Below, one piece after another: positions 5,116 to 14,064 of a DNA stretch of 16,641 nucleotides (positions are counted from its first letter, which is position 1; the number at the start of each line of letters is the position of its first letter). The stretch is from Ruminiclostridium sp. (GTDB taxonomy: Bacteria > Bacillota_A > Clostridia > Oscillospirales > Oscillospiraceae). The stretch covers positions 1-16,641 of the forward strand of contig JAFXCU010000034.1 in the NCBI GenBank assembly GCA_017521345.1, written 5' to 3'. The notes under the pieces were generated by a model. The model did not search any database, was not told the DNA's origin, and saw only the letters and a program-made list of their open reading frames with translations. Both the position numbers and the translations under genes were made by a program.

Positions 5116-5239
5116 CCTCGTAGAGTTTCGCCACCGCAGTGGCGAAATCAAGTTCAATCTGTTTTCTGGCGCGACATGTGCGTGCCAGAAAACTCTTCTC
5201 GGCCTGCCAGTGTGCCCAAAGGGCGCGCACAGCAGGCCG
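5116..5239 (+). repeat. 124-nt three-hairpin dispersed repeat, copy A
   Basis: It begins CCTCGTAGAG and ends CAGGCCG. Three consecutive stems are visible: stem 1 TTTCGCCAC/GTGGCGAAA (5126-5134/5139-5147, loop CGCA); stem 2 TTTTCTGGC/GCCAGAAAA (5162-5170/5184-5192) enclosing an ACATGTG loop; and stem 3 CGGCCTGC/GCAGGCCG (5200-5207/5232-5239), with an inner 8-bp helix GTGTGCCC/GGGCGCGC (5210-5217/5221-5228). The same 124-nt unit is present on the other strand at 13743-13866, at 104 of 124 identical positions without gaps. It lies 15 bp after the mfd stop, on the mfd sense strand and before the terminator hairpins, so it is probably in the mfd 3' UTR. Small open frames through it differ between the copies and are not supported as genes. 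Confidence 0.85.
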
Positions 5240-5249
5240 AAATCTCTTT

Positions 5250-5277
5250 CTTCGGAAAGGGCTTGCCCTTTCCGAAG
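5250..5277 (+). other. Perfect 13-bp hairpin downstream of repeat copy A
   Basis: CTTCGGAAAGGGC (5250-5262) pairs perfectly with GCCCTTTCCGAAG (5265-5277) across two bases, so the closing pair must open to form a 4-nt loop. There is no T tract right after it; only GCG separates it from the next hairpin. It may stabilise the mfd 3' end or act together with the following terminator. Confidence 0.6.
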
Positions 5278-5282
5278 CGTAA

Positions 5283-5315
5283 AAAGGCAGAGCTTTGGCT
5301 CTGCCTTTCGTCTTT
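5283..5315 (+). terminator. Probable terminator of mfd
   Basis: AAAGGCAGAGC (5283-5293) and GCTCTGCCTTT (5298-5308) form an 11-bp stem with a TTTG loop, followed by the moderately T-rich CGTCTTTTC. This is the best rho-independent terminator candidate after mfd. The A-rich left side means it could also work on the opposite strand. Confidence 0.75.
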
Positions 5316-13693: not shown

Positions 13694-13700
13694 CTTTTTA

Positions 13701-13741
13701 CTTGAGGGACCCGCTGCGCTGGGCTCCCTCAAGTGTTTTTT
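13701..13741 (+). terminator. Terminator of the usp gene
   Basis: CTTGAGGGA-CCC (13701-13712) pairs with GGGCTCCCTCAAG (13721-13733) with one bulged base and an 8-nt loop, followed by TGTTTTTT. It lies 7 bp after the usp stop. Confidence 0.88.
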
Positions 13742-13742
13742 G

Positions 13743-13866
13743 CGGCCTGCTGCGCGCGCCCTACGGGCACACTGACAGGCCGAGCAGTGTTTTCCGGCAC
13801 GCACATGTCGCGCCGGAAAACGTATCTAACTTTCTTTCGCCGTTTCATCGGCGAAACTCTACGAGG
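13743..13866 (-). repeat. 124-nt three-hairpin dispersed repeat, copy B (inverted relative to copy A)
   Basis: Read on the - strand it begins CCTCGTAGAG (13866) and ends CAGGCCG (13743). It aligns to copy A over all 124 positions with 20 substitutions and no gaps. The stems are kept: TTTCGCCG/CGGCGAAA, TTTTCCGGC/GCCGGAAAA and CGGCCTG/CAGGCCG. An A-T pair in stem 1 and a T-A pair in stem 2 of copy A become G-C and C-G here, and one C-G pair in stem 3 becomes a T-G wobble. The unpaired linkers and the stem 1 loop hold most of the other changes. Here it lies antisense to its flanking genes, between the usp terminator and the SLH gene promoter, so it is not simply the 3' UTR of one gene type. Confidence 0.85.
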
Positions 13867-13881
13867 CTTTTCTGTGAAACG

Positions 13882-13915
13882 AAAAGGGGCGCTGCATTTT
13901 GCAGCGCCCCTTTTT
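13882..13915. terminator. 14-bp terminator-like hairpin beside repeat copy B
   Basis: AAAAGGGGCGCTGC (13882-13895) pairs perfectly with GCAGCGCCCCTTTT (13901-13914), with loop ATTTT and a further T. The T run on each strand makes it potentially bidirectional. On the - strand it would stop transcripts coming from the possible promoter at 13963-13991 before they reach copy B. Confidence 0.7.
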
Positions 13916-14035: not shown

Positions 14036-14064
14036 TTGACATCATCCTCCCTCTGGTCTATAAT
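14036..14064 (+). promoter_or_regulatory. Sigma-A promoter of the SLH protein gene
   Basis: A perfect TTGACA (14036-14041), a 17-bp spacer and a perfect TATAAT (14059-14064) form a consensus promoter. It lies 39 bp before the start codon, with GGGAGG in the leader. The -35 box with its next base (TTGACAT) is the reverse complement of the ATGTCAA heptamers upstream. Confidence 0.9.

Follow-up and report, generated by a model that had tools for sequence, protein, structure and literature searches.

The 124-nt repeat that occurs twice in the 16,641-nt Ruminiclostridium sp. contig analysed here (called the window) is most likely the core of a non-autonomous, miniature element that is moved in trans by IS1182-family transposases and targets stem-loops, a reading to which we give a probability of about 0.85 from sequence comparisons. 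As the evidence stands, it forms the core of a transposable element that, despite unusual features, is of a broadly known kind, and it is not a new RNA gene. The first-pass annotation had suggested a structured RNA or a hairpin-dependent mobile element; the mobile part of this suggestion is supported by inverted repeats, empty sites, hairpin duplications and an IS1182-type partner.

Two copies of a three-hairpin repeat

Copies A (5116-5239, + strand) and B (13743-13866, - strand), each of 124 nt, align with 104 identities and no gaps, as first annotated. The differences named between paired positions are also exact, with A5133-T5140 replaced by G-C, T5167-A5187 by C-G and C5207-G5232 by T-G in copy B. 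The best match to copy A in 20 first-order Markov windows reached 55 identities, compared with the 104 of the real copy, and the window contains the 19-base stem-2 motif twice, for 0.01 expected occurrences. Both copies fold into three hairpins (z -7.26 for copy A and -6.32 for copy B, with 0 of 200 shuffles as good). Thus, the three stems of the annotated unit stand, but the unit is not complete, as each copy is followed by an extra 3' hairpin (5250-5277 and 13700-13734). The mobile unit of relatives terminates at a 3' hairpin of this sort. The features of the two loci are as follows; G001 is the nearest genome searched, and alignment A1 is described below.

5116..5239, + strand: copy A, conserved core with three hairpins (copy comparison, covariance model, alignment A1)
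5126..5147, + strand: copy A stem 1, 5126-5133 with 5140-5147 (folding, covariance model, covariation)
5161..5193, + strand: copy A stem 2, 5161-5173 with 5181-5193, loop ACATGTG (folding, covariance model, covariation)
5200..5239, + strand: copy A stem 3, of which other copies have longer variants (folding, covariance model)
5250..5277, + strand: copy A stem 4, the 3' terminal hairpin, where the right inverted repeat sits in relatives
5281..5308, + strand: terminator-like hairpin directly 3' of copy A; G001 has the same hairpin in place, without the element
13743..13866, - strand: copy B, conserved core with three hairpins (copy comparison, folding)
13700..13734, - strand: copy B 3' terminal hairpin
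13886..13910, - strand: terminator-like hairpin 5' of copy B; the G001 hairpin at the same place differs in sequence

The surroundings of copy B call for some remarks. Read from the Usp gene, its 3' hairpin has six T within two bases after it (window 13694-13734), and G001 has its own Usp terminator at this position; the hairpin may have taken over termination of the Usp transcript. The terminator scan listed no site there. The hairpin that precedes the conserved ATGGGAGGACGGAGGA stretch is found at the same place with a different sequence in the window (13886-13910), G001 and G002 (L138, L139, L141), and it represents turnover of both arms of native terminators. A perfect consensus promoter, TTGACA-17-TATAAT, is present at 14036-14064, upstream of an SLH-domain gene.

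Distribution in the Oscillospiraceae

G001 harbours at least 40 dispersed copies, a count that leaves out ten opposite-strand matches of the palindromic stem 2. At the DNA level, matches were found in 13 of 60 relatives, including G043, one of 23 genomes from the other families of the order. With a covariance model (E 0.01), 79 of 150 genomes of the family, corresponding to 63 of 106 genera, were positive, and many of these 79 genomes have at least 23 model matches. The search of Oscillospiraceae genomes proposed by the first-pass annotation thus revealed a repeat widespread in the family. A class-wide model search at E 1e-4 yielded 2 of 291 genomes, both Oscillospiraceae, with 11 candidates evaluated in each genome and filters so strict that weak copies may escape.

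A pattern scan of named genomes, which gives names and not counts, identified carriers among the matches listed in Pseudoflavonifractor, Flavonifractor, Intestinimonas, Oscillibacter, Sporobacter termitidis and Candidatus Evtepia. A Vescimonas fastidiosa plasmid has the repeat in 15 places. A pattern match in Brucella tritici (L281) has no covariance-model match and was taken as chance. Three unannotated human faecal 'Bacteriophage sp.' records (MT838656.1, MT836333.1 and MT835961.1) match 66-80% of the unit.

Conservation and covariation of the core

We aligned 52 of the 56 located copies with MAFFT on sequence only (alignment A1), and the covariance model was built from these 52. In A1, 97.3% of cells pair. 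Two-sided changes occur in 28 of 36 pairs, a level that none of 500 shuffles attained, and the score for covariation, 0.364, compares with 0.154 for shuffles, which are blind to relatedness, and at most 0.109 for slid controls. In a second set of 28 copies from other genomes, whose alignment was fitted to the covariance model, 29 of 39 pairs covary (score 0.521). The covariation check that had been proposed, run here as a shuffle test, therefore gives a strong signal in both sets.

Some unpaired positions are also well kept, with conservation in A1 of 90% or more for the linker CTTCTC and for C60, T62, G63 and G65 in the loop. At columns 58-70 (43 of 52 cells), 98-144 (40 of 51) and 106-142 (41 of 51), the prevailing pairs are of G-U type, which implies mismatches on the opposite strand at these three positions. 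Elsewhere in stems 1 and 2, with pair 58-70 left out, wobble cells are rare (13 of 1085) and two-sided changes number 133, a few of them being themselves wobbles; the wobble rate in 19 tRNAs of the same set of loci is 27 of 407. The statement that the unit matches no RNA family that can be named agrees with the Rfam search, in which no family reached its gathering score in the window. Four sub-threshold matches near copy A lie beyond the 124-nt unit, over the 3' hairpin and the terminator.

Ends and size of the full element

The 124-nt unit is the core of a non-autonomous element of ~180-260 bp, with inverted repeats CAGNNTGTCRAAAAA in relatives, the right one lying inside the terminal hairpin. 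The near-identical copies of a Pseudoflavonifractor genome (G102) are conserved from CAG[A/T]CTGTCAAAAAAGT, ~45 nt 5' of the unit, as far as a terminal hairpin whose last bases are CGACACGCTG, and these limits identify the inverted repeats as the ends of the element. In the 18 of 20 G102 copies with both ends placed, it is 206-259 bp long and hence too short for the transposase frames of 476-543 aa (L237, L238). It shares with MITEs its small size, as seen in G102, the absence of a transposase gene and its multicopy nature, as seen in G001.

The ends are much less clear in G001. With up to two mismatches, the end pattern matches 29 times forward and 29 times reverse in G102, compared with 4 and 5 times for a reversed-pattern control; the corresponding numbers in G001 are 5 and 14, compared with 3 and 7. 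Among 33 rows (31 G001 and the two window copies), six keep at least 12 of 14 positions at the 5' end and six do so on the 3' side; among 660 random stretches, the corresponding numbers are 3 and 8. The ends of the G001 copies are worn. In the window copies, the inverted repeats are not recognisable: both keep 8 of 14 positions on the 5' side, while on the 3' side one keeps 10 and the other 9, values within chance there, since 10 is attained by 87 of 660 random stretches. We take copies A and B as old, immobile members with decayed ends.

Three G001 loci (L200, L202 and L214) have an end like CAGNNTGTCRAAAAAGT and, by eye, are devoid of this core; L200 and L202 lie near hairpins. These may be further miniature elements belonging to this system. 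A different repeat, GTAGGGGCGATTCACGAATCGCCC, is present at L124 and L202, in two related genomes.

Insertion into stem-loops and duplication of the target

Of the 20 copies in G102, 18 are each bordered on either side by one and the same terminator-like hairpin. Across genera, a flanking duplication (score of at least 16) was detected in 36 of 111 copies and in 0 of 328 mismatched left-right pairings; the other 75 copies have none. Strong palindromes account for 25 of the 36 duplications, compared with 0.4% of random windows. The 111 copies, which are partly non-independent as some come from the same genome and three from the G102 organism, are made up of 28 plus 92 (three of 95 were dropped because they were cut by the locus end), minus nine with short flanks. 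The three G102-organism copies (L093, L292 and L300) were excluded from the later set of non-G102 duplications. In other genera, the distance from the start of the duplicated hairpin to the unit downstream is mostly 12-18 or 31-48 nt.

At a score of at least 18, 50 of 177 distinct copies have a duplication, 44 of which align better in direct and six in inverted orientation. Four of the six inverted cases are ambiguous, with margins of 1 to 7 points that come partly from the element's own inverted repeats. At L099, L189 and an IS copy, L392, the loop of one duplicated target hairpin is clearly inverted relative to that of the other, as if insertion, or a later event, had turned one of them round.

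Sites without the element were found for both window copies. At site A, the element is absent from G001, which keeps the same terminator, and at site B it is absent from the stretch compared in G001, G014, G010 and G002. A site in G180 was rejected as a precise empty site, as it offers neither intergenic space nor a terminator. Insertion into stem-loops or terminators, another trait of such MITEs, was observed for the element and for the IS copies L391 and L392.

Seven plausible shared sites were found among 86 copies of G001, G002, G010, G014 and the window, a number that underestimates sharing because just 14 listed copies were used for G002, G010 and G014. Pairing at six of them (L166/L450 omitted) was compared in model columns: of 31 changed pairs, 15 changed on both sides, 12 on one side with pairing kept, and four are broken, while 60 of 305 unpaired positions changed. 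This pattern fits constraint in place or re-insertion, and some shared sites may be re-insertions. The count replaces an earlier one from single folds and pair folds (on single folds, 59 of 151 changed pairs broken, sites counted from both sides), which we discarded because spurious pairs and one misaligned pair were mixed in.

Probable IS1182-type partner transposases

The same inverted repeats flank transposase genes. They are present at both ends of PF13751 loci in G104, G027 and G109, and at one end in G093. Two of three transposases pass the IS1182 model (NF033551, cut-off 270) with 388.6 and 376.5 bits, and the third, which is shorter, scores 239.5. The ends of the G102 elements and those of the IS fit CAGNNTGTCRAAAAA, so that inverted repeats common to an autonomous IS1182 element and the miniature element are found in relatives.

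A search with the G027 protein (E 1e-20) detected relatives in 18 of 150 genomes. The element is present in 15 of these 18 and in 64 of the 132 others (Fisher p 0.0056, uncorrected for kinship). No transposase relative was detected at E 1e-20 in 64 of the 79 element genomes, G001 included, and in G102 we found one transposase fragment with a stop codon and nothing more of that group. The association holds for the closer transposase group only. PF13751 itself was rejected as a general marker, the element being present in 18 of 34 PF13751 genomes compared with 79 of 150 overall.

The repeats sit at both ends of the four longest close relatives (L390-L393, 51-100% identical) and of L394, L406, L408, L409, L412 and L419, some of these loci being truncated or overlapping stretches of one element. 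The repeats are found at one end of L405, L414 and L416-L418, and at neither end of L395 (G180, 49% identical), L407 and L411. Most relatives at 26-39% identity are devoid of them, L397, L402 and L403 having just two-mismatch matches. In five IS, such ends are 1496-1720 bp apart. L391 has a 31-nt hairpin, ACAGGTCCGGCATTTCAAATGCCGGACCTGT, on both flanks, and L392 a 35-nt hairpin with its loop inverted; these are the two with a duplicated hairpin among seven IS whose flanks were inspected, the other five showing no duplication. By eye, a hairpin abuts each side of L393, L394 and L409 and one side of L390 and L408.

Four IS loci were compared with the three-hairpin core itself, and none matches it significantly. 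The best match (E 0.24, inside L237) was not taken as evidence of a core. A match to the end of a known insertion sequence had been named as an outcome that would speak against the first-pass interpretation; it is found for the ends of the larger element, which match those of IS1182-type IS, and not for the 124-nt core.

Proposed mechanism and alternative explanations for the core

We propose that the transposase would recognise an extruded stem-loop and that the element would be joined at the two feet of this structure. Repair would then duplicate the hairpin in full, long or short, and leave the host gene with a terminator. With less certainty, the three internal hairpins might act in cis and be maintained because a copy no longer spreads once this structure is lost. 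A need for the core in cis for movement, of which we are less sure, would fit its conservation across genera in a gene-less element. In a more specific and tentative version, success would require both the ends and the core folded into its three hairpins, single-stranded or as a cruciform, with the IS1182 transposase, or else a host factor, recognising the stems either as folded DNA or as RNA made during movement. If true, the core would be a cis-acting nucleic-acid cofactor, and the element would use structure to insert into structures. Against a role in movement, most pairs were kept in place at the six shared-site pairs, which would fit a function of resident copies.

Such a function is the basis of another possible, if doubtful, explanation, namely that the core is a structured RNA working in place, for instance a 3'-UTR element, with the transposon ends as its delivery vehicle. 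The strong covariation in both copy sets would suit it, as would the three positions where G-U type pairs predominate and the other strand is mismatched, the breakage of only four of 31 changed pairs at shared sites, and the fact that the core is still paired in window copies with decayed ends. However, no promoter-like site emerged from a sigma-70 type scan, either at copy A or inside the element at copy B, and wobbles are rarer in stems 1 and 2 than in the tRNAs. Orientation relative to the neighbouring genes is mixed as well, and neither this nor the promoter scan gives the RNA part of the first-pass suggestion direct support. Of the nearest genes, the upstream one reads into the sense strand of 71 of 125 copies and the downstream one into the antisense strand of 94; by class, 46 copies are in convergent, 48 in antisense, 25 in sense and six in divergent arrangement. 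All neighbouring called gene pairs comprise 93 convergent and 97 divergent among 508. Convergent gaps are thus over-represented and divergent ones under-represented, in a comparison made without a statistical test, as expected for a terminator target. These counts rely on a home-made gene caller, with loci shorter than 2500 bases skipped; from 147 copies, 17 at edges and five inside a called gene were removed.

The covariation might also be mutational, if template switching between hairpin arms perfects imperfect palindromes, which we consider unlikely. The paucity of wobble intermediates in stems 1 and 2, the native terminators at shared sites that, by eye, change both arms together, and the inverted loops of a few duplicated target hairpins (L099, L189, L392) point in that direction. 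Yet arm changes in 51 duplications were one-sided in 18 cases and two-sided in four, which indicates that copying from arm to arm is not dominant in duplicated target hairpins, although these duplications are younger than the divergence of the core. Moreover, arm copying cannot explain the conserved linker and loop positions, and it would have left three wobble positions uncorrected in most copies. The earlier claim that pairing is under selection is well founded for conservation and covariation, while the selective cause has this unlikely mutational rival.

The hairpins and the GTAG motif made an origin as a REP-like sequence mobilised by a REP-associated (RAYT/Y1) transposase the first hypothesis to be tested, and it is now very improbable. 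The GTAG or GCAG motif beside stem 1 presumably resembles that of REP sequences, and some repeat genomes have weak Y1 matches, e.g. G020, G035 and G036, whose Y1 genes we take from sequence to be RAYT-like, as we do for L073, L075, L077, L078, L079, L080, L086 and L087 in several genomes of the order. G001 has an IS200-like gene. However, no Y1 match was detected in seven of 13 genomes with the repeat (G002, G004, G010, G013, G014, G034 and G043), which led us to reject membership of the REP/REPIN systems with RAYT. The ends, the hairpin duplication and the inverted repeats fit a DDE IS, and Y1 elements are not known to make target duplications.

Relation to known elements and significance

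BOX, ERIC and RUP are dispersed intergenic repeats able to fold, with ends and hosts that differ from those of the element described here. Among IS1182-family members, IS1272 and TnSha1 (PMC5678879, PMC4923244) and ISCbo5 (PMC3098183) are described, in the portions of these papers available to us, as inserting in stem-loops, often gene-end terminators. The transposases reported here belong to the same family (NF033551) and the target is likewise a stem-loop. Inverted repeats are another shared feature, those of IS1272 being ~16 bp (PMC5678879). According to the same portions, the target stem-loop of IS1272 and TnSha1 is replaced or lost in part, and no target duplication arises (PMC5678879, PMC4923244), whereas the present element duplicates the whole stem-loop; stem-loop duplication is drawn in PMC5678879 as a hypothetical alternative pathway. 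ISPse1, an IS1182-family element of Paracoccus, is tabled with a 4-bp repeat in the available part of PMC3281130. Unlike these IS, the element described here carries no gene.

Gene-less partners of the family are also documented. The accessible part of PMC3852290 gives ISMac2-related MITEs of Methanosarcina acetivorans with an IS1182 partner, of 160 and 169 bp in 14 and 7 copies, with ends apparently of 26 and 25 bp and direct repeats apparently of 4 and 0, as far as the table columns can be interpreted. Compared by description, that part names neither a conserved internal structure nor a hairpin target (PMC3852290). We found no description of the present element or its conserved structured core in the searched part of the full-text literature, nor of a cis-acting nucleic-acid cofactor for DDE transposons in the available parts of PMC5678879, PMC4923244, PMC3281130, PMC3852290 and PMC3098183. 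Thus, as judged from those parts, terminator targeting by the IS1182 family and IS1182 MITEs are already in print; the whole-hairpin duplication and the covarying core in 63 of 106 genera are new.

The work has a practical corollary, as RNA discovery based on covariation could mistake a unit of this kind for a structured RNA gene. The length of the duplication is set by the hairpin and not by a fixed stagger, so that these insertions naturally document the possible handling of folded DNA by a DDE transposase. The core, for its part, raises the question of why a gene-less element keeps three covarying hairpins across so many of the sampled genera. Finally, terminators are usually read as passive stop signals; in the Oscillospiraceae, a major family of gut bacteria, they serve as landing sites for a family of elements that occurs in 79 of the 150 genomes sampled.
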